NCBI RefSeq assembly: GCF_019649055.1
Contig: NW_026570423.1
Coordinates: forward strand, 86,117-150,116
Reading direction: 5' to 3'
Source: Paramacrobiotus metropolitanus
Lineage: Eukaryota; Tardigrada; Eutardigrada; Parachela; Macrobiotidae
Length of the DNA stretch: 64,000 nt
Shown in pieces: positions 30,711 through 64,000 of this stretch; position 1 is the stretch's first letter, and every line of letters starts with the position of its first letter. Made by a program: the position numbers and the translations under genes. Under the pieces are notes generated by a model, which was not told the DNA's origin, did not search any database, and saw nothing but the letters and a program-made list of their open reading frames with translations.

Positions 30711-30763
30711 AGTAGCCACTGAGTTTACGATTTAACCGTTAAATCGTAAACTCAATGGCTACT
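30711..30763. repeat. 53-bp near-perfect palindrome
   Basis: Two 26-base arms (30711-30736 and 30738-30763) are inverted copies with a single mismatch, around one central base at 30737. The core is GATTTAAC-C-GTTAAATC. Related bases (GTACGG.AC) flank both sides after a gap. It lies about 470 bases upstream of the first exon seen for gene C. Confidence 0.85.
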
Positions 30764-31233
30764 AGTACCGTACTGCAGCGCTACCATCGTACAAGAGTTT
30801 GGACTGGTGTCCATTATTTACATTGTATTCGTACAGTACTTGATTGGTACTACCTACTGTTGCTGCTGGACAGTAGCAGGACTCTCTCCTCTTACGGTAA
30901 CAAAACTGTTGGTCTATCACAGACTTTTTTATCGAGATTTTCTGTCGCAGTTCTGTCTCTACGCTTACAAACAAAACTTGTCTTCGTTTCTGCGAAGTTG
31001 GTTGCGTTCGAATTATTTTCCTCCTGCTTTAACTGTGTGACGGTAACACTGCATGTACTTTGCTGGACCAGCCTGAAGTATCTGTACCTATCTGTACTTA
31101 TTTGAAAATCTAAGCGCACAATACAGGGTCTTGCTTGAAACCGCAGTTACAACGACACACTCGACTTTTATCATTTCTGCGATTATTTGGTGTCCATTAG
31201 GTGCTAACGACGGCATGCTTTGTAGCTTCAGCG

Positions 31234-43572: not shown

Positions 43573-43866
43573 AAAGGTCATGGAGGGACGTCAATGAAGA
43601 CAAGCGTGATTTGCTTCCTCCCTGGTAAAGGTCATCCTGTATGCAGATGATCCGTTGAGATGTGCGACTCATTTTGGGTTAATGGTCCCAAAGGTCATGC
43701 GACTTGAATTCCGTTACGGTGACTCTGTTGGGCAATTGATGGTCCCAAGGTCATCCCTCTTCTATTCACACTTCTATTAAAAGTCATGGAGGGACTTAGC
43801 CGATTTTTGCCGACTTTCAAGCACTTCTTCGCTTGCCTCCCTGGTAAAACTTTTAAGTTGACCTTT
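43573..43866. repeat. two related blocks 206 bp apart, rich in AAAGGTCA
   Basis: AAAGGTCATGGAGGGAC at 43573 recurs as AAAAGTCATGGAGGGAC at 43779. Each is followed after 30-50 bases by GCTT..CTCCCTGGTAAA. Between them, TGGTCCCAAAGGTCAT and TGGTCCCAAGGTCAT (about 43684 and 43741) form another pair. The block therefore carries four or five octamer copies in a noncoding setting. Confidence 0.7.
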
Positions 43867-43908
43867 CCGTCGCACATCCAACATCAATATGCCTCGAGCG
43901 GCCAGAGT

Positions 43909-44362
43909 GCCGGCAAAGTTTACCGTAACATCTCTGATGAGGCCGGCTAACTACCGCATTAAATTTACCCCATGACGCTTCCACATTAAATCTTTTACTC
44001 TTGTTCGCCGCTTGTGGCCCAGTTTTCCGTACAAGAGATCCGGCTTGATTACCGTTATTTCTCTCGTTAAGTTTTGACACTAAATCGCTTAAAGAGATTG
44101 CCGGCATATTTACCGTAGCATCTCCGATGGGGCCGGCTAATAGACCGAATCAAATTCAACCCCATTAATATTTCCACCTGTTGTCTTTCTCTTTTTCGCC
44201 GCTTGTGGCCCCCTTTCGTCTTCAAGAGATCCGGCTTGATTACCGTAGTTCTCTTGCCGATTTGTAACACTGAGTCGCTCAAGAAGGAGAGCCGGCCAAC
44301 TGCCGTAGCTACTCCCTTGGGGCCGGCTTTGTAGACCGAATCAATTTTAACCCCAATCGATG
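43909..44362. repeat. 191-bp tandem repeat, about 2.4 units
   Basis: Units start at 43909, 44100 and 44291 (GCCGGC....TTACCGTA...ATCTC..ATG.GGCCGGCTAA), exactly 191 bases apart. Each includes TAGACCGAATCAA..TTAACCCC, CGCTTGTGGCCC and AAGAGATCCGGCTTGATTACCGT; the last unit is cut short. The units are clearly diverged. Arrays of this kind are common in untranslated regions of large LTR elements. Confidence 0.85.
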
Positions 44363-44544
44363 CTCCACATGATTTCTTTATCCTTGGAAGTTCTGAGCTA
44401 TAAACGCTGAAAACAAGAAATGCACAAATACAGTTTATGTGAACAATTCATGTCACCCTCATATACAACACCATTTTTCATTTATGTGACGTACCGACAA
44501 TTGCCGTAGACGTCCTTTAAATAGTGTGATCCTAACGATCAACA

Positions 44545-47274
44545 CTATTCCATTTCATTTGAATCGTCCTCGCCGTCTCTCGGCGGGCGCTCCTTAGTGC
44601 TTTCTGGTTGATTACGGTCAGATGTTCGGTCAACTGGTTCCGTTGAATCAACCGCCATGACCTTTGCTGGGTCAACTGCACGTTGGCCACGACCTTTGCC
44701 TTGGCGACTGCGTTTTACCGCCTCGACTCGATGGCGTGCGTCGTTTTCTTCTAACCGTAGTCTCCGGTTATTAGGGTCGTCCGCCAATCGGCGCTGTACA
44801 TCGGCAAGATTTTCGCGGAGCTGCTGGTTTTGCAGGCCGCGTCTTCCTATCTGGTTAGGAGCGCGTTCTGGGCGTCGGTCGCCTTTGTTGACCAGGAATT
44901 CGTTAACGTAGACATCTACCCCGTCTACTGGTTCCACATAATCGCTCCCCATGGTATCTTTGATGCGATTAATCCTCTCTTCCACTTGGGAAGCATGACG
45001 CGCTACAAGATTGCCCTTCTCCATTCGTGTCCTACACTTCTTTAACGCTTTCCGAGCCGTGTGGGCTATCCCAACATGTTCCATAGGTTCTCCCAACTTA
45101 ACGACGTGAGGTCGGAAAAATGATGGAATATCGTCCTTCAGTGTGTTGGACACCAATTGATTCTGTGTCTTATAATGCGCCAGTCTCGCAGCAAAGACCT
45201 TTTGCCCAATCCTTTTTGCGGCATAGTCTTTCGGATCCACCTGTAATCCGATCGATGCTCTGGCTGCAAGCAACTTGAAGGCCGGATTCACATGCCGTAA
45301 AACGAACTGAGCCACATACTCCTGTCGTTCATCGTAATCTGTGTAATAGAATTGTGTCATCCCGACTGGGTCAGTCGTGTCCAATGGCACATCCAATAGG
45401 CTCAGATCTAGCAAACTGTGTAAACCATTTCGTCGGATGGGGAGATAACAATCGCGCGCAGAGTCACGATGAATGAATAATCGACGGAAAGTTCCTTCTT
45501 CTACTCCCCTCTTAATCTCTCTAGCATACCCAGAATCGAGTAAGAATTGGCGCAACTGATTCAAATTTGTGCTAATTCTATTAGCTTCAGCCGAATCGTT
45601 CTCGATGCCAAAGTATCGACAAATTTCCACAGTTTGTTCGTCGATATCACTCATGTTATATTCCATGTCAATGGAATCGGGTTGTCGGTTATTGAATCTT
45701 GAAGTTTTACGTTGTTCATTTACGCGGCGGTTATCCGCTTCACGCTGAGCTTCCTGTTCACGTCTTTCCTCAAATTCCCGCTGCGGTAGTTCATTACTCG
45801 CCGATGAAGCCGGTTGGGGGTCGCTGTCGAGAATTACATTTCGGCGGTGGGTCACATTTTCTTGGGACGCTTCGACAACTGAATTGGTCCCTTCCATCAT
45901 GTCATCCTCTTGAGCGGCACTTATGATGGGATCCACCACATGAACCATTGACTCCATTCTCTGATACTTTGGGGATGAATCTTCCCGTTCCTCGGTTGAT
46001 GACCTTTTGCCTGCGCCGGGTTCGAAATTCGCATAGTACTTGGCTCTCTCCTGCCATCGTTTATCATGTGGGTCTGGCGTTCGGTTTCGCGTGCGTTCGC
46101 GTCTCTTATCCCATGACCTTTCAGGTGTTGACATCCGTACATTGCGGTTACGGAACGGAACTTCCAACGGCACCTGATGACCTTCCTTTTCAGGTTCAGT
46201 GCGGAATGCTTCCGCACGCCGTTGTTCTTCCCGTCCTCTTGTTGTGGCCAAAATCTTTGATGTGTCATTTTTCCGCTGAATGCCAGTCTCCATTATTTCA
46301 TTTCCATGGCGTACCCATCCTCTTCCGCCACGGTAATCTCGGTCGCGAGAACGTTCGCGTGACCTTTCGCTGTGATAGTCGCGTGTCCTTTCGCGAGAGT
46401 ACTCACGTGACCTTTCACTTCGTCTTTCAGAAGTCCGCTCATGTTCGCGTGAATGTCCGCGTGACCTTTCTCTATGCGGAGGCGATCGCGGTCGTATAAA
46501 ACCTTCATCCCGTTTGAAACTTCTGAGCGCGTGCAAAACGTTACTTTCAGTTTGACGGGATCTGCGCAGCTCTTCCATACGGTCTTCCACTGCTTTCTTT
46601 ATGTATGGCGCCGGAGCAAAGCCCTTCTGTAATCTCATCTTTTCTCGCAACAACATGTCAAATAAGTCCTGTTGCATAGCCGCGGGGTCTTTCGTCAACG
46701 TGTCTATCTGAATGATGAGAGACTGACGTATTAGCTGCGCTTCATCGTCGTTGAGACTGGCTGTAGGTACAGCTGAACTTGACGAACTGGCCGATGTCTC
46801 TCGTGCAGCTTGTTCACTTAAGCGCTTATTTTCCGCGTTAATCTTCGCACGAAGTTCGTCTTCCATTTTCTGTACTCGCATTTTCTCTCTATCCTCTTCG
46901 AACTTCTTGCGGTAAGCATCCGTTTGCGGACATTTCAATGGCTCCAAAGTCTCATCCCAGCCACTTTCATTATTCTGGATCGCTTCCCGATAACGATCCT
47001 CCAGCAACATTCGTTCTTCTACCGGGATGCTACCATAATTTCGTGCGCTGATGAGATTTCGAAAAACATCCAGGTTACCCCGTTTAGCTTCCATAAGCCC
47101 AACGAGTGAAACGATGTGCGGATCACCCAACTTGTGAACGCAGGTGTAGCATGGGAATCTTTTGTCAACCTTTCTGTTGTTCCGTAGACAGTCCGGACAC
47201 TTTGGATTATAGCCCGTAGATCTGTCTATTTTTGATGCCGAGCTTTTCGAAGAGGCTTGACCTTTTTGTGCCAT
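44545..47274 (-). CDS. retroelement accessory ORF6, 909 codons, zinc-ribbon and RS-rich
   Basis: ATG to stop without interruption. Residues 26-45 have C-X2-C-X12-C-X2-C (CPDC...CYTC), a likely small zinc-binding ribbon. Residues about 70-180 are charged and helical. Residues about 258-321 are an Arg/Ser/Glu-rich tract (RERSR, SERRSERSREYSRERTR) resembling RS domains of splicing factors. Residues about 540-800 form a compact-looking region (EICRYFGIEN, RRLFIHRDSARDCYLP, YYTDYDERQEYVAQFVLRH). The tail is basic. No signal peptide, membrane segment or envelope feature is seen, so I do not call it env. RNA binding or nuclear export of long transcripts would suit the zinc and RS parts, but this is inference. 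A splice-acceptor-like TTTTTGATTACAG ends at 47291, 17 bases before the ATG. Confidence 0.8.
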   Translation of the reverse strand: MAQKGQASSKSSASKIDRSTGYNPKCPDCLRNNRKVDKRFPCYTCVHKLGDPHIVSLVGLMEAKRGNLDVFRNLISARNYGSIPVEERMLLEDRYREAIQNNESGWDETLEPLKCPQTDAYRKKFEEDREKMRVQKMEDELRAKINAENKRLSEQAARETSASSSSSAVPTASLNDDEAQLIRQSLIIQIDTLTKDPAAMQQDLFDMLLREKMRLQKGFAPAPYIKKAVEDRMEELRRSRQTESNVLHALRSFKRDEGFIRPRSPPHRERSRGHSREHERTSERRSERSREYSRERTRDYHSERSRERSRDRDYRGGRGWVRHGNEIMETGIQRKNDTSKILATTRGREEQRRAEAFRTEPEKEGHQVPLEVPFRNRNVRMSTPERSWDKRRERTRNRTPDPHDKRWQERAKYYANFEPGAGKRSSTEEREDSSPKYQRMESMVHVVDPIISAAQEDDMMEGTNSVVEASQENVTHRRNVILDSDPQPASSASNELPQREFEERREQEAQREADNRRVNEQRKTSRFNNRQPDSIDMEYNMSDIDEQTVEICRYFGIENDSAEANRISTNLNQLRQFLLDSGYAREIKRGVEEGTFRRLFIHRDSARDCYLPIRRNGLHSLLDLSLLDVPLDTTDPVGMTQFYYTDYDERQEYVAQFVLRHVNPAFKLLAARASIGLQVDPKDYAAKRIGQKVFAARLAHYKTQNQLVSNTLKDDIPSFFRPHVVKLGEPMEHVGIAHTARKALKKCRTRMEKGNLVARHASQVEERINRIKDTMGSDYVEPVDGVDVYVNEFLVNKGDRRPERAPNQIGRRGLQNQQLRENLADVQRRLADDPNNRRLRLEENDARHRVEAVKRSRQGKGRGQRAVDPAKVMAVDSTEPVDRTSDRNQPESTKERPPRDGEDDSNEME

Positions 47275-47635
47275 TTTGTCCGTTTACAATCTGTAATCAA
47301 AAACAATCCATCATGTTAAACTTTCCACGATAATCCTTTCCATTCCTATCCGTTATCAAGGCTTTCTATCATTTTTACGCCTATTCCGTTACTGAGCTGA
47401 GACTTTCCTAGCTCCTACCTCTCTCCCTATCACTGTAACGTGGTGACCTTTCTCACGTTATCAGCACTTTCTGACTACTGTGACCTTTTCTGTTAGTCTT
47501 ATAGCCGCTACTTCGCTAGCTGAACTTTCCGCTTTTAGTTTGCCGTTAAACTTGTTCTCTTTCGTTTTCAACTATTTTATGCTTTTCCTGTAATATGCAG
47601 GGTTCATTACTCGCTGCATATTACACACGTCCCAT
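47275..47635 (-). other. gap between ORF5 and ORF6
   Basis: This 361-base spacer has no ORF. It contains two or more AAAGGTCA octamers (TGACCTTT near 47452 and TGACCTTTT near 47482) outside coding sequence, and the splice-acceptor-like site before ORF6. Confidence 0.6.
47286..47300 (-). promoter_or_regulatory. putative splice acceptor before ORF6
   Basis: Minus strand reads TTGTTTTTGATTACAG|ATTG with the AG at 47292-47291. The pyrimidine-rich tract and CAG give a good acceptor, 17 bases before the ORF6 ATG. It suggests a spliced subgenomic mRNA, as for retroviral env. Confidence 0.5.
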
Positions 47636-50600
47636 TCACTCTGACTCTTTCGCCGACGGTTGGTATGGCTTAAAGTCAACTCGGCCGTCCTGTTTAATAT
47701 GGAGCACGTCATCTGCAATCAATGCCTCCACGGCATTCTTGATCCACTCTTTATCGTTTTCAATGTTCAATTCTCCCAATTCATAATGGGCAGCCATGAA
47801 ATTTGATAGGTCACCCCACGACGCTCCATTGGTGCCGCCAATGGCGTCCAAAGCCACATCTGTAATGGCTATTTTCCAGGCCTCCAGTTCCATTTTAAGT
47901 CTGGGCGTACGTTCCGCGCCCTGTTTCGGAAGGTAATAGATGACTTTGTTATCCTTGTTGTATTTGCATCCCAACTTTCCTTCCTTATATGCTCGTTTCA
48001 GGACTCGTTCGGTCATATTTAGTGACGATCTTCCGTTCGAGTTTATTGCAACTTGTCTTTTCAGATCGGTACCAAGCATTTCTTTTTCTCGAACAACCTG
48101 GATCGCAGCCTGGACTTCATTCCATGTCCGGTTAGTTACGTCTAACGGTGCTCCGAGCGAGTAATCCGTCGCCTCCTTGGTTCCCGTCTTCTGGGAGGAT
48201 TGTGCTGAATCCGTTGAGTCAATTGTCGCGGATTCATCAATCCTCAGCTTTGCCAATGATCCGGATGATGACCCCGCCGATTTCGGTTCGGCTATCTTCT
48301 TTTCGTCTTGCAACGAAGTCTCTTGACCTCCCACATCGCCGGCCGACTTCGATCGTTCCTTCTCCAAGACTTCCTTTAATGGTGTAAACAATGACCTTTG
48401 GAACACCTGACGTGCGGATGCCGCCGCTGCTTCTGCTTCCGCCGCCGCTTTCTCCATTGGGAGCATGACCTTTTCTTTTGCCCCTTCTTGCAGAGTCTCA
48501 TGACCTTTCGCCGCGTTCGCAGATGGATCTTGACCTTTTGATTGGTCGTCCTTTTCTGTCGCCGGTTCGAGGGGCGTCTGCGTCGTATTGTCGTCTCCAC
48601 TCTCTTCCGATTCTTCATCCATTGGTCCTCTCTTTGTCGATCTTCTCGACATCTGAGCCGTTAACCGGGCAGCCTCTTCTTCAGCCGTCTTCTGTGCGAT
48701 CTGGTTCAGTATGGGAGTTGACGGGTCTCCGCTCAACGGAACAACAACTTTTTCCATGTCCTGGCTGTCGGACATATAGCAGTAGGTCTGCCTCTCTGGC
48801 GGTATCAGGCCAACTCGCGTATATCGGATCGGTAGTCCTTTGTGTGCGTTCGTTGTCGAAAGGATGTTCTGTCGGATCATCCGCGGCAATACACGCTCGG
48901 TGGCCGTGTCGACTTCCTTTATCATTCCTTTCCCGTCATTCCAAACAGCATTAATGTATTGGCTAATGCGGTGACTCGTTGATCCCAACGGGCTCGTCAT
49001 CCCCGCGATTGCCCTTTCCACGCGCATCTGGGTGTCTTCATTTGGAGTTGTCAACGCCTTATCTGAACTCGCTGGTCGGAAGAGCTTAGCCCTATATGCG
49101 AAGTTCGGATGTCTCTGGATGAGTTTTCCCGCGTTCCGCGCATACTCCAGTACCACGTCGAATTTCTGTTTGGTGAAGCTTCGGCGTTTCCCTTTCAAAT
49201 AATTATTCAGGCCCGTTCGAAATTTCCCTGTAACCGGTGCCGTCCTGGTCCGCGTGAAATTTTTCTCGGCGCCGTCGAACGCTGCCACAATTTCATCTAC
49301 TGTACACAGGTTGTCATTATCAGGTTCATCGAATTCCAGTTCATCACCCGAAAAATTGAGCTCGCTCTCGCCGTCAGGTGCGGTGTAGGTGGCCATCGCC
49401 AGTGCATCTATTTTTACGGCCTCTTTCTCCTTCTTTTTCGATTTTGCCGGTTCGCTCTTTGCTTTTTTTGCTTTGTCCAAAGCCTCCGCTAGGCTTTTGG
49501 AGCGGCCCGTTTTATGTTCCGGTTGTGATCTTGTACTAACCGTTGAAGTGCTTGGTAGGCTCACTTCTGACGCTTCTGATTCACGGGACGTCTCCCGTTT
49601 GGCTTTCTCACGCTTTCCTTTCTCCCTACGTTCTTTGGGAGTGGATGCCGAGATGACGACCGGGGCCACTTGTTTAACGGCTATAACCTTCCCCTTGGGT
49701 GGTAATGGTTCAGGCTCGGTGACCTTTGACTTTGACTTTGATGTGGCCGATTCGATCACGAACTTCTTTGACGTTGTGGGTGACGATGACCTTTCTCCGA
49801 CTGACTCATTCAGAATTTCAACATCGGGAGAAGATGGTTTGTCCTTTTTCTTCCTCTCACCTTTCTTCTTCTCAGTGTCTTTGCTCTCGCTTTCGTCACC
49901 GCTCTTTTTCTTTTTATCTTCTTGTTCCGCCCGTTTCTTTAGGAAGTCGCCTTTCTTAACCTTATCGCGATTCATGGCTTCTTCCAGTTTGGGTGCAACT
50001 CTTGGATGACGAGTTTTGGAGGGTTTAACGACGACTTTTAACCGGGCATCGTCTTTTTCTACCGCTTTGTCGTTATCAACGGCGTCGTCGTCCTCATCTT
50101 CATCGGTCGATTCTTTCGCCGAGTCACCTTCATCTTTTTCTTCTTCAGACTCATCCTCTTTTGACGGTCGTCGGGTATTCTCCGCTTCTGCCACTTCGGC
50201 TACGGAGGCCTCTGCCGTCTCTCCGGCTCCGCCTTCTTGTGCCGGGTTTATTTCCAGATGAGCTGTCGGCACCTTTGGTGGTTGTGTCACTATCTCCCAT
50301 AGAAGATTGAGCTTCCCATCATAAAACCCTGTTTTGTATGATCCATCACTCATGTTTTTTGTTATCCGAAGATGAGCTTTGTCCATTTCTGCTCGATGGC
50401 GCATCATACTGATCATCATATTCTTATGAGCGTTAGCATCCTCGCGATCGCTTGGTGGGATTAGGTTCCACAGTTCGTCGCGAGCCTTTTGATCAGCGTT
50501 ACGAGCGCTTTCATCTGATGCGTCCCATGGTGCAAATGGGATCGGATCTCCCGTTATCTGATCAACGATCACCGCGGTTATGATCTCCGTTGGATCAGCC

Positions 50601-52588
50601 TCGTATTCCAATTTCAATGTCATTTTCCTGCATGTCGCATCGGTATATTTCAAAATTGACTCATAGTCGTCAATTGTGCGTTTCTTCGGGTCGGGATCTG
50701 CGGTCGGTTTTGGGCGGATTCGTTCAGCTGTCAGGAGTCGTCCTTCCACTGTATATGTGTACACTAAGTGGTCATCATTTGTGCCCACTTTAATTCGAAT
50801 CCATGCGTTCTCTTCAGTCGCTACCTTCGACACGACATGTTTCATCATGTTAACAAGAACTCTTGGATTGTGACGCTCTTCTGGGGGAATAAACTGTAGC
50901 GCCTCGTAAACGTCCCTCTTTGACTTCTCCCCAATTTCATTCTTTACTGATCTGTCCGCCAGAGGGTTGTACGATTCAATCTCTTCATTCGTTTCCTTAT
51001 TCACTATCCTCGCGGTGACCTTTCGTTCGTTATGGTCTGTCCCGGTATATTTGCATGTGAAGGTTCTGGGTTTCGGAAATCGAAGTGCCACAGGTCCGGT
51101 GCTTGACGGCGTGGTTGGTACACTCTGTCTACCCACTGGAATCGGTGTCTGTGCTTTACCCGCTGGTGCTGCTTTACCCGTCGTGACCTTTTTGGTCTGC
51201 TGCCCTTTCTTTCCAGCTTCTGGTGGACTGTTTGTTGGTGACCTTATTCGTTTTCCACTTTTCGTAGTTCCGCTCGACGGTTCCGTAACTGAGCTAGTAC
51301 GTCCGCGTGCTGATCCTGCGGTTGAACTGGCTCGTGACCTTTGTGTCCGCTCGCTCAATTCCGCGTCGATTCTTCTCTTTGCTTCTAAGAGGTCACTGTC
51401 AGACATCTCATCTACTAACGCTGCTTTTTCAGCTGGGGGTCCGGATGGTCCCGCGCTAGTAGTTGTTGGAATCATTTTCTCCTGCGGGAATACCTTAAGG
51501 TATCTCAGGACCTGTTCAATAATCCAAGGCCATTGTCTGCCTTTTACTGAAGGGTGATACTGCCACATCGAGGCGATCTTTATCGCTAACTCTTTGCGCT
51601 TTGCTTCGATTAGCTTCGTTTTCTCTTTCAGTGCGATATGGCATGGTTTGATGACTGCTTCCAAGCTAATCAACTTTCCATACCATCCATGTTCGTCTTC
51701 CACTCTCATATGAATTCTGTAAAGGTCACGGCACATCCTATTAAAGTCCTGGATTGCCTCTTTGTCCGTCTCTGTCAATTTTTCCGTTTTGGCTGCTATT
51801 ACGTTCAAACGCGCGTCGTCCTCTCTGAGATCCAGGGGGAGTTTCGGTGCATACTCGCGTACTGACGGTTCCCCTGGGGGCATTAACCGTAGTCCGTCTG
51901 GTCCAATCTCATCTAAATTGGGCCCCAGCGATGGCAACATGCCCCGCGGTCGTGGCGAATCATATCGATTTCCTCCTCGCCTCCCTCCTTTTTGTGGCGA
52001 GTTCCGGTGGGGTCGTTGCGCTCCCAATTGCTGTGGTGATCTCAACCGAGGTGCTCCAATGTCCGACAGTGACAGACCTCCCGTTGTTGGGAAAGGTGGC
52101 AGTATCGGCGATCCCCTTTGAGACTGCGCTGGAGTTGACGTCATTCCGCTAAATCCGCTGTGTCCGGTAAACCTGCTCGGTGTGGTCTGTTGCGGTGGCG
52201 GCATCAACATTGTTGCCGGTCCCATCATCACCTGCGTGGGTCCCATCGGTGGTGTATATGTTCCTGGATAGGACTGATAAGGGACATTATACGTCGGTTG
52301 TTCCATGTACTGGGTTCCGGCAGTCGAACCGTGGTGCACCCAGTTAACCGTATCTTGATAACTTGTCGGCTGTCCCGGATACCCATAATACACTGCGCCT
52401 CCATAAGGGCCTCCTTGTGCTGTTCCTGATTCATTCTGTGCCGTTCCTACTGACGACGTCGACCCCTCGCCATATGAGGTGTCGTAACCGTATTCTCCTT
52501 CCATTCTTTTGGGAGTTGATGCTTTTAACGGGTTTCCAATACTTTCCGAGTCAGAATTATCTGAGTTCTGTCGTTCCAATCTGTCCAT
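47636..52588 (-). CDS. retroelement accessory ORF5, 1650 codons, with duplicated domain and winged-helix-like end
   Basis: ATG to stop uninterrupted. Residues 1-250 are Pro/Gly/Tyr/Gln-rich and probably disordered. About 253-370 is helical (KEAIQDFNRMCRDLYRIHMRV). About 520-620 and 664-770 are two related copies of one domain: TARIVNKETNEEI/TAVIVDQITGDPI, then LQFIPPEER/LWNLIPPSDR, NMMKHVVSK/NMMISMMRH, and EGRLL/DGKLNLL. About 800-1130 is low-complexity, Lys/Glu/Ser-rich. About 1574-1641 (ALDAIGGTNGASWGDLSNFM, then IKNAVEALIADDVLHIKQDG) has the helix-helix-helix-wing spacing of a winged helix and resembles linker-histone H1 globular domains; this is a pattern impression only. No signal peptide or membrane segment is seen. 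I do not recognise the whole protein. Chromatin or nucleic-acid binding is possible. Confidence 0.8.
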   Translation of the reverse strand: MDRLERQNSDNSDSESIGNPLKASTPKRMEGEYGYDTSYGEGSTSSVGTAQNESGTAQGGPYGGAVYYGYPGQPTSYQDTVNWVHHGSTAGTQYMEQPTYNVPYQSYPGTYTPPMGPTQVMMGPATMLMPPPQQTTPSRFTGHSGFSGMTSTPAQSQRGSPILPPFPTTGGLSLSDIGAPRLRSPQQLGAQRPHRNSPQKGGRRGGNRYDSPRPRGMLPSLGPNLDEIGPDGLRLMPPGEPSVREYAPKLPLDLREDDARLNVIAAKTEKLTETDKEAIQDFNRMCRDLYRIHMRVEDEHGWYGKLISLEAVIKPCHIALKEKTKLIEAKRKELAIKIASMWQYHPSVKGRQWPWIIEQVLRYLKVFPQEKMIPTTTSAGPSGPPAEKAALVDEMSDSDLLEAKRRIDAELSERTQRSRASSTAGSARGRTSSVTEPSSGTTKSGKRIRSPTNSPPEAGKKGQQTKKVTTGKAAPAGKAQTPIPVGRQSVPTTPSSTGPVALRFPKPRTFTCKYTGTDHNERKVTARIVNKETNEEIESYNPLADRSVKNEIGEKSKRDVYEALQFIPPEERHNPRVLVNMMKHVVSKVATEENAWIRIKVGTNDDHLVYTYTVEGRLLTAERIRPKPTADPDPKKRTIDDYESILKYTDATCRKMTLKLEYEADPTEIITAVIVDQITGDPIPFAPWDASDESARNADQKARDELWNLIPPSDREDANAHKNMMISMMRHRAEMDKAHLRITKNMSDGSYKTGFYDGKLNLLWEIVTQPPKVPTAHLEINPAQEGGAGETAEASVAEVAEAENTRRPSKEDESEEEKDEGDSAKESTDEDEDDDAVDNDKAVEKDDARLKVVVKPSKTRHPRVAPKLEEAMNRDKVKKGDFLKKRAEQEDKKKKSGDESESKDTEKKKGERKKKDKPSSPDVEILNESVGERSSSPTTSKKFVIESATSKSKSKVTEPEPLPPKGKVIAVKQVAPVVISASTPKERREKGKREKAKRETSRESEASEVSLPSTSTVSTRSQPEHKTGRSKSLAEALDKAKKAKSEPAKSKKKEKEAVKIDALAMATYTAPDGESELNFSGDELEFDEPDNDNLCTVDEIVAAFDGAEKNFTRTRTAPVTGKFRTGLNNYLKGKRRSFTKQKFDVVLEYARNAGKLIQRHPNFAYRAKLFRPASSDKALTTPNEDTQMRVERAIAGMTSPLGSTSHRISQYINAVWNDGKGMIKEVDTATERVLPRMIRQNILSTTNAHKGLPIRYTRVGLIPPERQTYCYMSDSQDMEKVVVPLSGDPSTPILNQIAQKTAEEEAARLTAQMSRRSTKRGPMDEESEESGDDNTTQTPLEPATEKDDQSKGQDPSANAAKGHETLQEGAKEKVMLPMEKAAAEAEAAAASARQVFQRSLFTPLKEVLEKERSKSAGDVGGQETSLQDEKKIAEPKSAGSSSGSLAKLRIDESATIDSTDSAQSSQKTGTKEATDYSLGAPLDVTNRTWNEVQAAIQVVREKEMLGTDLKRQVAINSNGRSSLNMTERVLKRAYKEGKLGCKYNKDNKVIYYLPKQGAERTPRLKMELEAWKIAITDVALDAIGGTNGASWGDLSNFMAAHYELGELNIENDKEWIKNAVEALIADDVLHIKQDGRVDFKPYQPSAKESE

Positions 52589-52599
52589 TAATTGTGCTT

Positions 52600-52618
52600 A
52601 CCTTCTGTAATAATGAAA
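52600..52618 (-). promoter_or_regulatory. putative splice acceptor (and donor) before ORF5
   Basis: Minus strand reads TTTCATTATTACAG|AAG|GTAAGC: an acceptor with AG at 52606-52605 is followed three bases later by a near-consensus donor GTAAGC at 52601. The ORF5 ATG (52588) lies 17 bases after the acceptor. A transcript could use the acceptor to express ORF5, or the donor to skip to ORF6. Both uses are inferred. Confidence 0.5.
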
Positions 52619-52711
52619 CAATATCGATTAGCTGTATAACGGTGGTGACCTTTTACACCTTCCCAACTCCTATTTTTAGTGTGATCAACCCCTGATTTGT
52701 ATTTATGTGGT

Positions 52712-56641: not shown

Positions 56642-57771
56642 TCATACGGTTCAACGTATCCGAGAAGCTGATTCTTCTTCACGACTCGGTATTTGCTGCT
56701 GTGGTTCGCGATGACGATTTCAAAGTATTTTCCCCTGTGATCCGTCACTCCTGCCAACGGTTGCACTTCAGTTTCCACTTGTGGGACCGGTGTAAACATT
56801 AGTTTGTTTTGAGCCGGTGCGTATTTTCCCATCTTGACCTTTACGCGTGTGCAGTTGGACGGCTTCAATTTGATTCTCTGATCACTGTAGACTTTAATCA
56901 CATCTTTCGACATTCTAGCCTTTTCCACTCTTAATCTTCTGACTTTAATATCCTTTTCTTTTTCTTCATCCACTTCGTCGTCTTCGTCCAGATCCAGTAA
57001 GTCCTCTTGTTCTGAAAGGTCACTTACACCTGAATCTTCCGAAGTCGTTGAGTTATCGCTTGAACTTGTCCATTCTGAATCCGAGTTACTGCTCTCATAT
57101 TCTTGTGCAGTAGCTTGACCTTTGTCAACCTTTTCAAGTGGGCGTTCGTCAACTCCTTCGTCTTCCGATGAAAGGTCACTTTCGTTTTCCCGCGAATCGC
57201 TAAGTTTTTTCGCTTTCAGATTTTTGAGCAGAGGTTTGTCCCCTTCTTTTGCCTTTCGCCCATTTCGTGCGGCGACTCTTGGGTGACTCCTTGCTACCCG
57301 GATTCTCGTTGGTGACCTTTCTGACTGATCGGAGTTTGACCTTTCTTCGTCCGATTTTGATTTTTCCAATTCGTTTATGTTTTCAAGGCTCGTTAATGGC
57401 TTTTCGGTCAACTCGACCGGCCGACATTCCTCACCGTTATCGAGTGACCTTTCCCCGTTTTTTGCCTCAGTTACTGGGTTTTGCTGTTCATTCGATATTC
57501 GCTCCACTTCCTCTTTAAACTTTCTCCACATTTCGCCCCTGTCCGTTAACATCTGCGCAATATCGAAAGCCGACTTTTGACTTTCTTCTGTTTCATTTGA
57601 TCCTCCTTCAACTATCTCCTTAACCGTTTCCTCCTTCTCTGCTGTGATCTCTTTATCGGCTTCGTTCTGTTGGACCGTTTCATACCCTTTGGGTCGTTTG
57701 GAACCAACGAAGACACAATTTGCCATTAATTCTTCGGTGACCCATTCATCATTCGGAATCGTTTCATACAT
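56551..57771 (-). CDS. retroelement linker ORF3 between protease and RT, 406 codons
   Basis: Starts at a true ATG (57771), 40 bases after the protease ORF stop and in a different frame. An in-frame stop at about 57801 prevents a simple read-through join. The first 270 residues are acidic and disordered. Residues about 290-395 (YSDQRIKLKPSNCTRVKVKM, then FEIVIANHSSKYRVVKKN and QLLGYVEPYE) look like the beta-rich stretch that precedes RT in Gypsy Pol polyproteins. It ends in TGA overlapping the RT frame by about 90 bases in the -1 register. It is probably translated by reinitiation and passes ribosomes to RT by frameshifting; both are inference. Confidence 0.7.
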   Translation of the reverse strand: MYETIPNDEWVTEELMANCVFVGSKRPKGYETVQQNEADKEITAEKEETVKEIVEGGSNETEESQKSAFDIAQMLTDRGEMWRKFKEEVERISNEQQNPVTEAKNGERSLDNGEECRPVELTEKPLTSLENINELEKSKSDEERSNSDQSERSPTRIRVARSHPRVAARNGRKAKEGDKPLLKNLKAKKLSDSRENESDLSSEDEGVDERPLEKVDKGQATAQEYESSNSDSEWTSSSDNSTTSEDSGVSDLSEQEDLLDLDEDDEVDEEKEKDIKVRRLRVEKARMSKDVIKVYSDQRIKLKPSNCTRVKVKMGKYAPAQNKLMFTPVPQVETEVQPLAGVTDHRGKYFEIVIANHSSKYRVVKKNQLLGYVEPYEHMENVKVNAGTVKNVLEDPEVDDTTKADN

Positions 57772-57811
57772 GCACCACGTGTCACCGCCTCGTTCTGGTT
57801 AGTCCACTCCA

Positions 57812-60800
57812 TCAGGATCTGGTGCAAAGGTCACCTTTTTCTTTTGCATTAATCCCGGTAACCTTTTTTTTCCGGGTTACTTGCAATTCTCTCATCTCGT
57901 TTACATCGAATCTGGGGATTTCTTCTTCAAACTTCTTCCAGTATTCATGGAATGCTTCCTCGTTCCCCTCTTTTAACGCATTGTAAAATACTTCGAGTGA
58001 TTCATAGACAGGCGTGCCAAGTCCTGCCGGGAAGATAATCGTCCTTCCTTCACCTTTATACATGTGGTTCACGCGAAAGTCCCAGAAAAGGTCAACTCTC
58101 GCTTCTTCCCACATTTCTCCTTCTTCGTTCATCTCTTCTATCTCTCTTTCAAATCTCCTTTCTGTTGCTACCGGATCGAGAGGGTCCTGGATTCCTTTCT
58201 CGACACGTTGCAACCAATGGTTTAGCCATCTTCCTCTTCCGATAATGAAACTCTTCACACATGACAACCAAGTCCGGTATCTATTACAGTGATACCGCTC
58301 AATGTGTGGTTTCCACATTTCGTTTGTCCGCATGATACTTTTCGCTTCCTTTCGAACATGACCTTTGAGGTCTGCTAATGTGGCGTTACATCTCGGCCAT
58401 TCTGAAAGGTCATCTTGAGAGGCATTTTCGCGACATTCAGCACATTCCCATTGGGGTTGTATTCTGCACGGATCCTCGAAGTACCCGTGGTGACAACTCC
58501 CGGCTCGTTCTTCTGGAGTTAACGTCCGTTGACTCTCTTGCGGTTTAACCTCTTCCTGTGCTGTGGTATCTTCCTCACATTCGACTGGAGTCACGCTTTT
58601 GTCCTCAGAGGATATTTCGATGACCTCTGGTTCCTTTTGAGTTCGGTGACCTTTCAGCTGTTCAAGCGCCTTATTACGAATTTCACTTGTAAACATCTGT
58701 TCCTCTTCGGCTATTCGTTTCAATACTCGTAACCTTTCACTCTTCTTATCCTTCCACACTTTAGCCGTCTTTATTCCCAGTGCCTCTGGTACTGGGATAG
58801 GCTTTGCCCACTCCATGCCAGGCACAAGCGACTGTTTCGCTGCGGCTGTCGCTTCCTTCTGTGTGGCGGCTATCTTCTCGAATGTTGGTGACCTTTCGTC
58901 ATTGATAGCTTTATCCGGTGACCTTTCATTATCTATAGCAGAGCGTGGTTCGAAAAGGTTGGAAGTACGCTCCGGTACTTTTATCGCCGGTGACCTTTCG
59001 TCTTTCTTTCCCAGTGCCTCTGGTACTGGGATAACTTTTTCAACACATTCTTTTTCTGTGGCTCCTTGCTCACAGTCGCCTGCGATCATACTTCTCTCGT
59101 CCGAGAGAAGTATGATCGCCTCATCCGTGTCTGGCGCAAGCGGTTCCTTTTTCCTTTCGTTGACTTTTTCGGCATTTCCACTTTCACTTTTCTTCTCCGG
59201 TGCCTCTGGTACCGGGATTGTCCGTTGGCTAATCTCGTTCTGCTGCATTCTCGTCATTCCCGGTGCCTCTGGTACTGGGATGACCTTTTCTCTTCCCTTT
59301 TGTGGCAGCAGTGTCCGGTTTAATGTATCTTCGATCTCCTGCTGGATCACTTTAAACTGTTCGAGTGTTGACAATTCTTTTTGCACCAGCTTTGTCTTTT
59401 CGTTTCCCTGTGCCTCTGGTACTGGGATTAGCGTTTTATTAGCCGTTTGAGCAAGTTCGGTGACCTTTCCGAATTGAACTTTGGCGATTGGTTTCGGATC
59501 ATCTTCTGTTTCCTCTTCGCCTTCATTATCCATCAGTACGAACTTCTTCTCTAAGAAGTCGAATCCCAGAAGCACCTGTACGTCGTCACACTTCGGTCGG
59601 ACGTAGAAGGAATGTTCACTAGTCTTTTTCCTTAAGGTCACTGGTGCTACACAGTAGTGCGTCACCGTGAATCCTGACGTTCCACCAATTCCGTTTATTC
59701 TCACTAATCTGTTTGGTGGTAGTGGAAGCATGTGAAGTCCATTCTTTTCACAAAACGGTTTGCTGATCAGCGACGTCTCAGCGCCGGTGTCCAACATTGC
59801 GGTAACCTTTATGTCTCCCACTTTCACTTCGTGGGTATACGCTTCAATTCGTTTGGGCAATTTTCCATTTTGAATCTTCAAGGTGTGAACTTTACATTTC
59901 ACAGGGATGAGCGATACTGGCCCCGGATCCATATCGGGAAGCACCTGTCCTTTTGCTGGAGTGCTATGACCTTTCAGTATTTCGCTCAGCTTATCAATCC
60001 TGTGTGGAACGTCAGTTCGAACATCGTAATATTTTCGCGGCTTTGTCTTTTCCGTTTGCTTCTCTGGAGCCATTTTAACACTGGTGACCTTTTGCACATT
60101 CTGCACTTGCTCGTTTGCTTTTGTGCTGTGCACGTGACCTTTAGTCACTTCATTTATCGTCTGATGGATCAGTTCCTCTTTACGGTTTTCATTTCGCTTA
60201 TCTTGCATCTTCTCGATGACTTTGCTTGTTATTTGGTCAGCTTGTTTCAGTTCATCTGCTTCGCTGTCTTTCAGCTCATCTGGTGACCTTTCATATGTAA
60301 CCACATCATATCCCTTTTCGGTCATCCATTGCATCACTTTTGCAGATACTTCATTGTTCGTTTTCATCGGGTCAGTTGGCGAAGACATTCCGTCTGTTCG
60401 GGCTGGTGACTTGTCATTGGCATCCTTTTGCAGTGCTTGTGATAAGTCCCGTGACCTTTCAACTGCACTACTCTGTCGCGTTTGTGGCATTTCTTTTGAC
60501 CATCCTTTCTGTTCATTTTGCGCTAAGTCCTGTGACCTTTCGTTACGCTTTATGACAAATCCGCCGTTTGACGACTTTTGTATGGGAACTTTTTCACCAT
60601 AATTCAACGGTTTCCCTTCTGGTGGGGCATTTCGAGGGTTATTTAGGTCAGCTTGTGCGTTCTTATATTCAGTTGCGTTGAACACTGGGGCAGGTTTCGT
60701 TGACCTTTGCGTTAGTTTCCCGGTAACTAACTCTTCTAATCGATTTCTTTCACATTGCGTTCGCAACTGTTGCATGTCCCAGTAATCTTCTTGCGACATT

Positions 60801-61654
60801 CCCCCTTTTTGTTTCGCTTTTGGTGTCACGGGTGCCCACATCCCGTGATTACCATTCGGTCTGTAGGCCACTTTTCGCCATATTTCTTTCCGTTGCAACG
60901 TTATTGCGTCCACAAGTGAGTCATCAGAGTTTTGTGTCATTTCGCTATTCATTTGCTGCGCTGTTCGCAGTGTCAAGTCTGTTTCTTGACCTTTCAATAC
61001 GACGCTGTCGCCGTGGCTTTTAGCGTTCGCACTTGCTCCTTGACCTTGCACTTGGACTTTTCCAACAGAAGGTGACCTTTCGTCTTTACTGGTGATAGCG
61101 ATATTCCGGTCCTCGTCCTCATTTTCCGCCAAATATTTCCGGAATTTCTCGTGTTGTTCGTTTTCCTCTTGCGCAGTATCGTTCTGCGGTTTCTTCTGAT
61201 TCAGCAGCGCCTGTTTAATCTTTGCGTTCCGTTGTGCGCGTCGTTGCGCCAGCACTTCTTCGCTGCAATACGGTGACCTTTCGTTTTGCTGCACTTTTTG
61301 CAGTGTCGTGCTACCGTCACGACAATTTCCACTCGCAGTACCATTCTGCGGTGACCTTTGATTCTGCTGCTGTAACGGCATCCTTATAGCCGCTTCGATT
61401 TCCTTCTGCAATGACGACATCCATATAGCCGTCTCATTTTGCTGTTTCGGCATCCATATAGCCCTTTGCTGTGGTTGCGGCGTCCATATAGCCGGTCCAC
61501 TTTCATTTTTCGCTGACGGCATCCTTATAGCCGTTGCAGTGGTCACATTCACTGCAGTACCATTCTGCAGTGGTGACCTTTCCGTTTCCCTCTTATCCGG
61601 TGGTTTAGGGTCGGGGCGATCAGTAGGCTCACCGGCGCCTACTGATCTTGCCCG
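57812..61654 (-). CDS. pro: retroelement protease ORF (pro), about 1280 codons from the frameshift site
   Basis: Entered by -1 frameshifting from gag at 61660-61654; the frame is open from 61711 and the conserved part has no obvious AUG at its start. The aspartic protease lies midway: VTAMLDTGAETSLIS with catalytic DTGAE at 59791-59777, then RINGIGG and VLLGFDFLEKKF, the normal retropepsin order. The long N-terminal part is low-complexity with five A-I-(W/R)-M-(P/S) repeats and many ERSP, KGH and KVT tripeptides caused by the AAAGGTCA octamer. After the protease come five IPVPEA repeats. Near residues 1016-1050 there is a Cys/His cluster (CHHGYFEDPC, CAEC) that may bind zinc, and the last 150 residues are Trp/Glu-rich and helical (RYRTWLSCVKSFIIGRGRW, LFWDFRVNHMYKG). 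The ORF is very large for a protease, and the extra parts are unassigned. Confidence 0.85.
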   Translation of the reverse strand, partial: RARSVGAGEPTDRPDPKPPDKRETERSPLQNGTAVNVTTATAIRMPSAKNESGPAIWTPQPQQRAIWMPKQQNETAIWMSSLQKEIEAAIRMPLQQQNQRSPQNGTASGNCRDGSTTLQKVQQNERSPYCSEEVLAQRRAQRNAKIKQALLNQKKPQNDTAQEENEQHEKFRKYLAENEDEDRNIAITSKDERSPSVGKVQVQGQGASANAKSHGDSVVLKGQETDLTLRTAQQMNSEMTQNSDDSLVDAITLQRKEIWRKVAYRPNGNHGMWAPVTPKAKQKGGMSQEDYWDMQQLRTQCERNRLEELVTGKLTQRSTKPAPVFNATEYKNAQADLNNPRNAPPEGKPLNYGEKVPIQKSSNGGFVIKRNERSQDLAQNEQKGWSKEMPQTRQSSAVERSRDLSQALQKDANDKSPARTDGMSSPTDPMKTNNEVSAKVMQWMTEKGYDVVTYERSPDELKDSEADELKQADQITSKVIEKMQDKRNENRKEELIHQTINEVTKGHVHSTKANEQVQNVQKVTSVKMAPEKQTEKTKPRKYYDVRTDVPHRIDKLSEILKGHSTPAKGQVLPDMDPGPVSLIPVKCKVHTLKIQNGKLPKRIEAYTHEVKVGDIKVTAMLDTGAETSLISKPFCEKNGLHMLPLPPNRLVRINGIGGTSGFTVTHYCVAPVTLRKKTSEHSFYVRPKCDDVQVLLGFDFLEKKFVLMDNEGEEETEDDPKPIAKVQFGKVTELAQTANKTLIPVPEAQGNEKTKLVQKELSTLEQFKVIQQEIEDTLNRTLLPQKGREKVIPVPEAPGMTRMQQNEISQRTIPVPEAPEKKSESGNAEKVNERKKEPLAPDTDEAIILLSDERSMIAGDCEQGATEKECVEKVIPVPEALGKKDERSPAIKVPERTSNLFEPRSAIDNERSPDKAINDERSPTFEKIAATQKEATAAAKQSLVPGMEWAKPIPVPEALGIKTAKVWKDKKSERLRVLKRIAEEEQMFTSEIRNKALEQLKGHRTQKEPEVIEISSEDKSVTPVECEEDTTAQEEVKPQESQRTLTPEERAGSCHHGYFEDPCRIQPQWECAECRENASQDDLSEWPRCNATLADLKGHVRKEAKSIMRTNEMWKPHIERYHCNRYRTWLSCVKSFIIGRGRWLNHWLQRVEKGIQDPLDPVATERRFEREIEEMNEEGEMWEEARVDLFWDFRVNHMYKGEGRTIIFPAGLGTPVYESLEVFYNALKEGNEEAFHEYWKKFEEEIPRFDVNEMRELQVTRKKKVTGINAKEKGDLCTRS
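58776..59426 (-). repeat. five copies of a hairpin-forming IPVPEA-coding 21-mer
   Basis: Plus-strand copies of CCCAGTGCCTCTGGTACTGGG or variants lie at 58776, 59010, about 59196, 59259 and 59406. In RNA sense each can fold into a stem of 8-9 pairs with an AGA loop and one internal mismatch. Copy 3 changes both partners of one pair (A-T to G-C). Copy 5 breaks that pair and copy 4 leaves a mismatch, so conservation of the stem is suggestive only. All five copies are in the same reading frame. Confidence 0.6.
61377..61532 (-). repeat. five copies of GGCTATATGGATGCC-type 15-mer
   Basis: In plus-strand form GGCATCC(A/T)TATAGCC or one-base variants begin at 61377, 61416, 61449, 61479 and 61518, spaced 30-39 bases. 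They encode A-I-(W/R)-M-(P/S) and all keep one frame. This is a short interspersed motif array at the start of the protease ORF. Confidence 0.7.
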
Positions 61655-61660
61655 TTTCCC
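61618..61660 (-). promoter_or_regulatory. -1 ribosomal frameshift signal between gag and protease
   Basis: In RNA sense the slippery heptamer GGGAAAC (61660-61654) lies in the gag frame as G GGA AAC. After a 6-nt spacer (GGGCAA) comes a perfect 11-bp stem, GATCAGTAGGC (61647-61637) with GCCTACTGATC (61628-61618), around an 8-nt loop. The gag stop TAG is inside the stem. The spacer GGGC can also pair with GCCC just after the stem, leaving an AA bulge. GGGAAAC is a known retroviral -1 heptamer, for instance at the gag-pro junction of type D retroviruses. The protease frame is the -1 frame, as required. Confidence 0.9.
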
Positions 61661-64000
61661 TGAACCGGCGCTCCACCTTGTTGCGCGCCCTGTACATTTT
61701 GTTGACCGATGTTATTTGCCGGGTTGGGGTTCTGGTTCTGTCCGTTGCCGTTATTGTATTGGCCACCACCCTGTTGGTAGTTACCTTGGCCGCCTCCGTT
61801 TCCGCCGCCTTGGTTGTTGCCGTAATTTCCGCGGCCAAAGCCTCTGCCTCGTCCTCTGAAGCCGCCGCGACCGTAGCCACCACGACCATAGCCGCCACCT
61901 TGGCCGCCGACATTTCCGTTATTCCCGTTTCCTTGTTGATTCTGGAAGTTAGCCTTCGCTTGATACCATTGCGCAATCAAGTCATATCCGTTTGCCACCG
62001 CTTGGCGCCAGCCGCCCAGGCCGCGCAGGCGTTGCCATTCTCTGAAGGCAAACAGGTTCGGGTTCTGTTCTGGTGGTGTGTTCGCGAACTTGCATCCTTG
62101 CGTCTGGTGGTTGCCATACATACAATACTGGCACATCTGCACATTGTTCGCCACCCATCCATCAATCATCTGAAACTTGAACTCCGTTCGTGACCCTTGA
62201 TTCTGCTGGAGGTTCTGGTTTCCTCTATTTGGCTGGAAGTTGCCTTGACCTTGTCCTTGGTTCTGGAAGTTCCCTTGACCTCCATTCCAATTTCCATTTC
62301 CGTTTCCGCCGAAGTTAACTGGTTGTTGTGGTGCTCCCATATTCGGTGGGGCTACATTCTGGGGTGCTGGTCTCGCTTGAGCCGCCATCTGTACTGCCGC
62401 CGCTTGTATGGCTGCTACCATTGCTTCAGCGAGAGTGGCCTCCCTTGTTATTTCCTGAGCCGGATTTGCTCTGCGATTTTCCAGTGGCTGTTGGACTGGC
62501 GCCACTGCCATTCGTTGTTGTGGCGTGTCTTCAACTTGACCTGAACGGATTGTCACGTAATCTTGATTACGTTGACCTTTAGGCGCCTTGTACTTTTCTT
62601 CTCCGGCTGACCAGTGTCGGAAAAAGTCTTTGATTTCAGTCGGTGTTCTGCACTGTTGTGTGCGCAGTGCCTTATAAAGGTCACTGTCCACTCTGCATCC
62701 TTCGATCAGGAAACCGACTGCCTGTTTCTCGGTAATGATCCGTTTTGCTTTGTATTTCATAATCGCTTGATAGAATTGATCAAGCGATTCTTTTCCAAGG
62801 TCAAATTTTCTTGCCATGGCTTCTCGTAATCCGAGGACTTCTTCATCCCGATCTCCATATTCATCTTTGAATTTGGCCATCCATTCTGTAATTGTATATT
62901 CTGTTTCCTCCTGGAGTGCGATCTCTCTCTCTCCTTCGAACCAGGTTTTCGCTGGTCCTTTCACTGCGCTGGCTATCTCGATTAAGATCTGGTCGTCGGT
63001 GAGGTGATACGTTCGTTGGGTATCCCTGACCAGTTGTGTCCAACCATTCACTGCGTCGCGATTTCCGTCAAAGGTCACCAATGTCGTTTTCCGTGCCATC
63101 GAATTGAGTGCATTTACCAATTTCTGCGTTGGATCTTGATCTTCTACTGTACTAGAATCACTGTCGTCATCTTCCTGGTTTCGCTTCGCCTTTGCGTAGC
63201 GGGACTTCCTTGGGCGTTCTTGACGGCTAGGCGGTCTATCCCGCTGTCCTTCTTTGATGAAAACATTCGTTTCGATATGCTGAGGAAACTGGGAAGGGTC
63301 ACCTCGATTCGTAAGTGAATAACTTTCCGATGGTGGCTCTTTGTCATCTTTGACCTTTTCCCCGTCTTTTTCGTTTTTGACGCTTCCTCTGCCAGTACCA
63401 GTTCGTAGCGGCATGTTGAAATGGAAGCTTTTACCCGTGCCCGTTTCATGCGCCTTGCTGTAACTGGGCATGGGTGATTCGACTGTTGCCGTTCGAACTC
63501 CATATTGCAGGAGCTGTTCGTCTTTGTGTTTGTTCGACATGTTAAGCGCTTTATTCTCGTCTTCGAGGCGACGGACTTTCAACTGAAATTCCTCTTTTTC
63601 CGTTTTTAAATTCTGGTTCTCCTCCTTGATCTGCAACATGTGCTGATGGAGTTGGAACGTTTTCTCCTGGATGACCTTTTCGGTATTGTTCTCCACCTTT
63701 TTGATATGTTCTGCCAAGTGGGTTACGTCTCTTTCCAGTTTCATATATTCCTCAGCTGCCGCTTTCAACTGGTCTTTTGTCTGAGTAACCTCGTCTTCTC
63801 TCGTCATCACTGTTTGGGTCATATCAATCAGCTCCGTATTGAGCTTGATGATCTCTTGTGTCTTCTGGTGGACTGTTTGTTGCCACTCCTTGTCTTTCCG
63901 TTCGAGCGCCGTAACCATCTCGTCTAAACGGAGTGCTTCCCGCTCCCAGTTCGAACCTTGTTCGGCCATGGCCTTGGCGGTTTCTTTCAACTCATTGTTT
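61639..64000 (-). CDS. gag: gag polyprotein, 5' end beyond the window
   Basis: The frame is open from the right edge to TAG at 61639; the real start is outside. About 787 codons are visible. The first 170 are Glu/Lys/Gln-rich heptads forming a long coiled coil (LERDVTHLAEHIKKVENN). A capsid-like retrotransposon gag domain follows at about 300-460 (KTWFEGEREIAL, EWMAKFKDEYGDRDEEVLGL, FDLGKESLDQFYQAIMKYKA). A single CCHC zinc knuckle C-X2-C-X4-H-X4-C (CQYCMYGNHQTQGC, near 62133-62092) would bind RNA for packaging. The end is Gly/Asn/Gln-rich with RGG-like repeats (YGRGGYGRGGFRGRGRGFGR), another RNA-binding feature. The last codons contain the frameshift site leading into the protease ORF. Confidence 0.93.
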   Translation of the reverse strand, partial: NNELKETAKAMAEQGSNWEREALRLDEMVTALERKDKEWQQTVHQKTQEIIKLNTELIDMTQTVMTREDEVTQTKDQLKAAAEEYMKLERDVTHLAEHIKKVENNTEKVIQEKTFQLHQHMLQIKEENQNLKTEKEEFQLKVRRLEDENKALNMSNKHKDEQLLQYGVRTATVESPMPSYSKAHETGTGKSFHFNMPLRTGTGRGSVKNEKDGEKVKDDKEPPSESYSLTNRGDPSQFPQHIETNVFIKEGQRDRPPSRQERPRKSRYAKAKRNQEDDDSDSSTVEDQDPTQKLVNALNSMARKTTLVTFDGNRDAVNGWTQLVRDTQRTYHLTDDQILIEIASAVKGPAKTWFEGEREIALQEETEYTITEWMAKFKDEYGDRDEEVLGLREAMARKFDLGKESLDQFYQAIMKYKAKRIITEKQAVGFLIEGCRVDSDLYKALRTQQCRTPTEIKDFFRHWSAGEEKYKAPKGQRNQDYVTIRSGQVEDTPQQRMAVAPVQQPLENRRANPAQEITREATLAEAMVAAIQAAAVQMAAQARPAPQNVAPPNMGAPQQPVNFGGNGNGNWNGGQGNFQNQGQGQGNFQPNRGNQNLQQNQGSRTEFKFQMIDGWVANNVQMCQYCMYGNHQTQGCKFANTPPEQNPNLFAFREWQRLRGLGGWRQAVANGYDLIAQWYQAKANFQNQQGNGNNGNVGGQGGGYGRGGYGRGGFRGRGRGFGRGNYGNNQGGGNGGGQGNYQQGGGQYNNGNGQNQNPNPANNIGQQNVQGAQQGGAPVQGNGQDQ

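Follow-up and report, generated by a model that had tools for sequence, protein, structure and literature searches.

A dense, conserved array of an octamer identical to the NR4A monomer site in a giant Ty3/gypsy retroelement of the tardigrade Paramacrobiotus metropolitanus

The window analyzed here is a stretch of 64,000 nucleotides from the tardigrade Paramacrobiotus metropolitanus (G000:C203:86117-150116), and its last base is also the end of the contig. From position 42755 to this end, it contains on the minus strand a giant Ty3/gypsy retroelement with multiple open reading frames (ORFs), which is saturated with the octamer AAAGGTCA. Between positions 43573 and 63679 an array of 67 exact copies is found with a mean spacing of ~305 bp, of which 54 lie on the minus strand, i.e. 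in the sense of the element, and 13 on the plus strand. The octamer is identical to the NBRE, the site that receptors of the NR4A type bind as monomers (PMC4777543, in the part of the text available; likewise stated in PMC12539977), and it is conserved in related elements even where the encoded peptide has changed. In the reading that we favor, with a confidence slightly above even, the array would consist of docking sites, dispersed along the element, for an NR4A-like receptor of the host, and would function as an internal enhancer or as an array that counteracts silencing. The original prediction, made by eye from the letters alone, had recognized the saturation, but had put the number at roughly fifty octamers over ~20 kb, which is an undercount.

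Excess and sequence specificity of the octamer

In the whole window AAAGGTCA is present 77 times, compared to a mean of 2.98 and a maximum of 8 in 100 dinucleotide shuffles, and ten of these copies lie outside the interval 43573-63679. Within positions 43501-64000 it is the most common of all 8-mers, and both orientations exceed the trinucleotide expectation by far (54 sense and 13 antisense copies versus 1.29 and 0.15, respectively). A codon-matched shuffle, which the original prediction had itself proposed as a means of refutation, left the excess standing: when synonymous codons were permuted among the six ORFs of the element, such that the proteins and the pooled codon usage were preserved, 300 shuffles yielded on average 3.33 sense (at most 9) and 0.23 antisense copies (at most 4), versus 49 and 10 observed, and the largest excess of any 8-mer belonged to AAAGGTCA. 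The sense sites are distributed over all three reading frames, as had been proposed, with 10, 22, and 17 in frames 0, 1, and 2, while the antisense sites number 0, 2, and 8; none is found in frame 0, since the word would there be read as a TGA stop.

The signal is sharply confined to the one word. None of its 24 one-base neighbors exceeds six copies in the window element, and the most frequent of them, CAAGGTCA (6) and TAAGGTCA (4), exceed their low expectation about six- to sevenfold, while most others are near expectation or absent. The base following the octamer is also restricted, being C in 37, T in 17, A in 13, and G in none of the 67 sites, and this exclusion of G is valid for both orientations. 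In a larger set of 248 sites, collected from seven stretches of related elements in addition to the window, the following base is C in 132, T in 71, A in 40, and G in 5 cases; C or G is favored one base further on, and G directly before the octamer. In the window element the preceding G is a preference of the sense strand (27/54 sense versus 3/13 antisense sites). All 248 sites have distinct 48-bp contexts and the flanks approach background beyond a few bases, indicating that the copies were not mainly spread inside longer repeats. Across the genome (169.8 Mb in 533 contigs) 42,562 copies of AAAGGTCA face 15,522 of its reversed control, and the 11-mer GAAAGGTCACC is present 2,576 times versus 120 for its reversed control, both counts taking the element clade and the remaining genome together.

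Conservation between related elements

Related elements were found among the loci L010-L022, with blastn segments of ~66 to 91% identity to the window element. These loci were picked for visible octamers, so that their densities are no random sample, while L023-L026 and L047-L056 were arbitrary picks. High-scoring segment pairs of less than 150 columns were dropped from the blastn count, and 8-mers touching gaps were dropped throughout. In segments below 73% identity the octamer is kept at 29 of 42 sites of the window element and, counted from the other copy, at 29 of 35 sites, compared to 11.5% of 8-mers of the same composition and 10.2% of all 8-mers; the contrast persists in the bands of 73-80, 80-86, and more than 86% identity. 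Conversely, 13/42 and 6/35 octamers in the lowest band are unshared, while the density stays high, with 67 octamers in 20.5 kb of the window element and 52 and 53 in 10 kb of L019 and L021, respectively. It looks as if selection maintains the array more than each individual site.

The original prediction had placed the constraint on the nucleotides and not on a peptide, and had named conservation in other copies as a test. Together with the codon shuffle, codon alignments bear out the constraint on nucleotides: octamers within identical peptides are kept in 106/118 cases, versus 8,029/22,521 other 8-mers (36%), and those within changed peptides in 35/94, versus 632/30,656 (2%). Several of these loci are closely related, so that the rows are non-independent and Fisher p-values for the peptide-split comparison come out too small. 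At codon identities below 0.5 and with identical peptide, 13/16 window sites and 13/13 sites of the other copy are kept, versus 15.7%. Antisense octamers alone are kept in 20/25 cases with identical and 8/17 with changed peptide, which argues for selection on double-stranded DNA.

The Ty3 family P0003, a relative with 43% identity in pol, is represented by four loci on C1 (917521-921525, 1307140-1310115, 1416619-1420764, and 2806601-2810011), in which the 11-mer GAAAGGTCACC is absent over 14.5 kb. Up to 8 kb on either side it is likewise absent at all four, versus eight occurrences at a C1 copy of the giant family, which itself has none within its own 3.7-kb pol match. Judged by the 11-mer and these four loci, only some of the Ty3 elements may possess the array.

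Organization of the element and position of the sites

The element comprises the following features, read from the LTR (long terminal repeat) at its 3′ end toward the contig end:

42755-43109, minus strand: 3′ LTR of ~355 bp, 90% identical to the LTR (1910-2271) that precedes gag in the copy L022
43573-43866, both orientations: the four octamers of the 3′ untranslated region, of which three are antisense and one is sense
43904-44355, no strand assigned: tandem repeat array with a 191-bp unit in the 3′ untranslated region, octamer-free
44545-47274, minus strand: 909-aa ORF, 7 octamers, without Pfam match
47444-47488, minus strand: two octamers in the spacer separating the 1650-aa and 909-aa ORFs
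47636-52588, minus strand: 1650-aa ORF, 10 octamers, without Pfam match
52712-56554, minus strand: pol of 1280 aa, encoding reverse transcriptase, RNase H, and integrase, with its first ATG at 56317, 8 octamers
56551-57771, minus strand: 406-aa ORF, 8 octamers (6.6 per kb), without Pfam match
57812-61552, minus strand: ORF of 1246 aa that contains an aspartyl protease domain, 21 octamers (5.6 per kb)
61639-63999, minus strand: gag-like ORF, open at the contig end, ATG at 63969, 5 octamers

A Pfam scan of the six ORFs returned the protease, reverse transcriptase, RNase H, and integrase, to which the gag-like ORF adds matches below the cut-off to Fez1 and SWIRM-assoc_3. In pol the reverse transcriptase occupies residues 102-265, RNase H 330-456, and the integrase 710-882, while the aspartyl protease is encoded in the upstream 1246-aa ORF; these Pfam matches give the order that is characteristic of Ty3/gypsy (protease, then reverse transcriptase, RNase H, and integrase). 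A search for a BEL/Pao peptidase found nothing, a result which does not demonstrate its absence. The gag-like ORF contains a CX2CX4HX4C knuckle, read by eye. In the window copy the 3′ LTR is present, while the position of the 5′ LTR would fall past the contig end. In the copy L022 a homologous terminal repeat precedes gag, the LTR being directly followed by TGGTAGCAGAGC, a putative primer binding site that resembles the complement of the 3′ end of metazoan initiator Met tRNA. With the L022 leader (LTR plus ~2.8 kb before gag) added to the window copy, the complete element is estimated at ~24 kb.

A P. metropolitanus protein matches the pol ORF with 92% identity across 89% of the length of the ORF. 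Of 2408 candidates 36 were scored, which places pol sequences of 87-96% identity at no fewer than 35 other loci, some of them interrupted by stop codons. Around pol, open frames of more than 3000 aa are found in several copies (C9:1907513, C103:208812, C162:223098, C1:853122, and others), so that reading frames split in the window copy are continuous in these copies; the separation may in part be due to sequence error, or may be real variation. All ten homologues found for the 909-aa ORF are from P. metropolitanus, as are all ten found for residues 1200-1650 of the 1650-aa ORF. In the protease-bearing ORF the peptide IPVPEA is repeated about five times (by eye), and ATCCCAGTACCA, the start of a matching 13-mer on the DNA level, occurs four times.

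ORFs contain 59 of the 67 octamers. The density peaks in the 406-aa ORF and in the ORF with the protease, and amounts to 2.0-2.6 per kb in each of the remaining four. Among the segments with a Pfam match, the protease domain contains none and the pol domains one of the eight octamers of that ORF. The eight octamers outside ORFs are at 43573, 43627, 43690, 43859, 47444, 47481, 52646, and 61574, in spacers and the 3′ untranslated region. Noncoding octamers had been foreseen in a spacer and in the 3′ repeats; the spacers and the 3′ untranslated region indeed carry them, but the tandem repeats at 43904-44355 do not. The predominance of one orientation without exclusion of the other was likewise correctly described. 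Between the LTR and gag of L022 (3146-3655) eleven further octamers are found, all of them antisense.

The spacing was analyzed for 298 sites from seven stretches, in which copies and short repeats are not independent. No excess is seen at periods of 10-11 bp, as would indicate helical phasing, nor is a clear dimer spacing seen; the spectral power is 2.4-3.0 at 147, 165, 195, and 200 bp and 1.2-1.9 at 175 and 185 bp, where ~1 is noise. Short same-strand distances tend to multiples of three, as would be expected of sites in ORFs, and a convergent pair at 39 bp occurs four times.

Candidate receptors

Among the AGGTCA half-sites of the element 67 of 90 are preceded by AA. At position 1, A is strongly preferred over C (67 AAAGGTCA versus 6 CAAGGTCA), and TCAAGGTCA, the type preferred by FTZ-F1 and ERR, does not occur in the element at all. 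The direct and inverted arrangements DR0, DR1, and IR3 are likewise absent from it. These counts support NR4A over FTZ-F1 and ERR as the best fit among the receptors considered.

The genome has 63 matches to zf-C4, the domain of nuclear receptors that binds DNA, and 20 regions among the stronger ones were fetched. For an exon on C45 (L042) the best relatives in the PDB are NGFI-B, NR4A1, and NR4A2 (73-79 bits), with RXR at 64 bits, and by eye a segment further upstream in this region looks like a typical first finger of NR4A. Thus, the host appears to encode an NR4A-like DNA-binding domain, at the level of this exon. Further exons are NR5A/FTZ-F1-like (L027) or, named by eye, ERR-like (L029 and L032) and NR6-like (L040). 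A search of the open literature on tardigrades, nuclear receptors, and NR4A returned nothing on tardigrade receptors, judged by titles and the beginnings of abstracts.

A putative docking array and its alternatives

On the basis of the exact identity with the NBRE and of the NR4A-like domain in the genome, the part of the original prediction that links the octamer to NR4A is supported, while the docking itself is still a prediction from sequence. According to the reading that we favor, the double-stranded DNA of the element would offer about three sites per kb to a monomer-binding host receptor of the NR4A (NGFI-B/HR38) type. The sites would span the internal region of a giant Ty3/gypsy clade and would be kept by selection in coding and noncoding sequence alike. 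Monomers bound along the body would constitute an internal enhancer and anti-silencing array, by which a unit of more than 20 kb could stay open, and expression of the element would follow the activity of the receptor in particular cells or under particular stresses. Docking as monomers leads one to expect neither helical phasing nor a clear dimer spacing, as was found. That NR4A is the actual reader, and that its effect on transcription or chromatin would be activating, we infer from sequence. A more far-reaching version, to which we give somewhat less than even credence, is that the clade has spelled out the word of a host receptor roughly every 300 bp within the sequence that encodes its own proteins. 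The whole double-stranded element, including the gene body, could then be coated with receptor, its protein evolution would partly be dictated by the array, and the unit of more than 20 kb would be coupled to a stress or germline receptor of the host and helped to escape silencing.

Several observations weigh against a host receptor that activates the element. Both LTRs examined lack the octamer, unlike classical response elements, although the density of the array predicts only about one per LTR. Arbitrary host DNA (14 loci, 100 kb) has 10 octamers versus 3.0 expected, and since the reversed control reaches 8, wide use by the host is not demonstrated. The same word could also be read by other factors. 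Moreover, NR4A receptors can repress, as described for the silencing of HIV mediated by Nurr1 (PMC9295971, in the part available), so that the effect on the element may be activating or repressing. Finally, the octamer clusters L014 and L015, which are taken up below and would favor a host reader, were selected for their octamer richness.

A different host protein as the reader is doubtful, but has a precedent. It could be FTZ-F1, ERR, an NR6-type receptor, or a zinc-finger insulator or architectural protein, and the array would then serve insulation or chromosome organization, as Su(Hw) does on gypsy, where 12 Su(Hw) sites are described within 340 bp (PMC2374998). The many other zf-C4 exons, among them the NR5A/FTZ-F1-, ERR-, and NR6-like ones, provide candidates; however, the zero TCAAGGTCA and six CAAGGTCA against 67 octamers disfavor FTZ-F1 and ERR, and an insulator is at odds with sites that are scattered over 20 kb rather than gathered in a single block.

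It is improbable that the reader is encoded by the element itself, e.g. by the 1650-aa ORF, with the octamer as the element's own code. Such a protein would bind the double-stranded cDNA for its protection, for nuclear entry, or for assembly of the integration complex. In accordance with this, the array spans the whole internal region and not the LTR, and homologues of the 1650-aa and 909-aa products were found only in P. metropolitanus. A low-confidence model of the C terminus of the 1650-aa protein (47639-48181) predicts two helix-helix-helix-strand-strand units in the order of a winged helix, but its mean pLDDT is 44, the ORF has no Pfam match, and a PDB search with the C terminus gave four matches at chance level (best E 0.043). 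Furthermore, the octamer coincides with an established site of host receptors, and it also forms clusters in stretches that lack detected homology to the element.

A signal for packaging, export, or stability at the RNA level, recognized as AAAGGUCA, had been offered as an alternative in the original prediction and is very unlikely. The surplus of sense copies would suit it, yet this bias is partly due to the TGA stop, which bars the antisense octamer from one coding frame, and the antisense copies are at least equally enriched, are conserved, and obey the same exclusion of G at the next base. Excess and conservation in both orientations are most simply explained by reading on double-stranded DNA, not RNA. 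That the array merely results from codon bias, from base composition, or from short repeats in the peptides (ERS, KGH, KVT) has a negligible chance of being correct. Some peptides do recur and a few short tandem arrays (46355-46416; L010:8504-8747) include the octamer, but the synonymous shuffle, the distinct contexts of all 248 sites, the use of three frames, both strands, and noncoding positions, and the retention of the octamer where the peptide changes all oppose it.

Octamers outside the element

Two stretches of C1 without detected homology to the element are rich in octamers, one having 14 in 10 kb (L014:1944-8812, from 300-310 kb) and the other 7 in 10 kb (L015:6774-7080, from 325-335 kb). 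Several of these are followed by C, as in the element. Possibly they are regulatory clusters of the host, and their lack of detected element homology favors a host reader. In the window itself, 8 octamers lie in 12 kb of non-element DNA (266-12006), for which blastn found no similarity to the element, versus 2 in the next 31 kb. An array of related reading frames occupies the plus strand at 22559-36375, three of them with F-box matches, two of which are above the Pfam cut-off. In L010 a frame resembling a Harbinger-type transposase (2592-3380, by eye) has octamer-free surroundings (L010:1-7400). Neither RNA families nor tRNAs were found within the window.

Comparison with known systems

What distinguishes the array is that a word resembling a transcription-factor site has been maintained across thousands of codons, and this in several families of related elements. 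It thereby provides a natural case in which to examine to what extent coding sequence can be shaped by a DNA-binding code and by what means giant retroelements remain expressed, as well as a handle on NR4A in tardigrades. To our knowledge, sites for host factors in mobile elements are known mainly from LTRs or short untranslated blocks, for example the gypsy insulator. Among the matches listed from the open literature, including few subscription papers, on the octamer or NBRE in retrotransposons, on giant LTR elements with nuclear receptor sites, and on tardigrade gypsy elements, no such array is described, and the main text of a tardigrade repeat paper does not mention Paramacrobiotus.

The nearest precedent for the array is the gypsy insulator of Drosophila, whose 12 Su(Hw) sites lie in the 5′ untranslated region (PMC2374998, in the part available). 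Both are elements of the Ty3/gypsy type with many sites for one host DNA-binding protein, which in the present case is a candidate. The gypsy sites, however, form a single 340-bp block of a degenerate motif, while here an exact octamer extends over 20 kb, mostly in coding sequence, and the window copy has no compact 5′ untranslated block of the Su(Hw) type. The copy L022 does carry an additional cluster of 11 octamers, which lies between the LTR and gag. With the NBRE, on which NR4A acts as a monomer (PMC4777543), the array shares the 8-bp word, and no clear dimer spacing is seen in it; the NBRE is described there in the regulation of host genes, whereas here putative sites form a dense array inside a mobile element. 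The nearest precedent in size is Burro of planarians, which according to the part of the text available is gypsy-like with an internal region of more than 20 kb and large extra coding capacity (PMC6431247). The P. metropolitanus element is likewise a gypsy-like giant with large extra coding capacity, but while Burro carries MATH, BIR, ankyrin, and BCL2-like domains (PMC6431247), Pfam finds none of these in the six ORFs of the window element, three of which are without any match.

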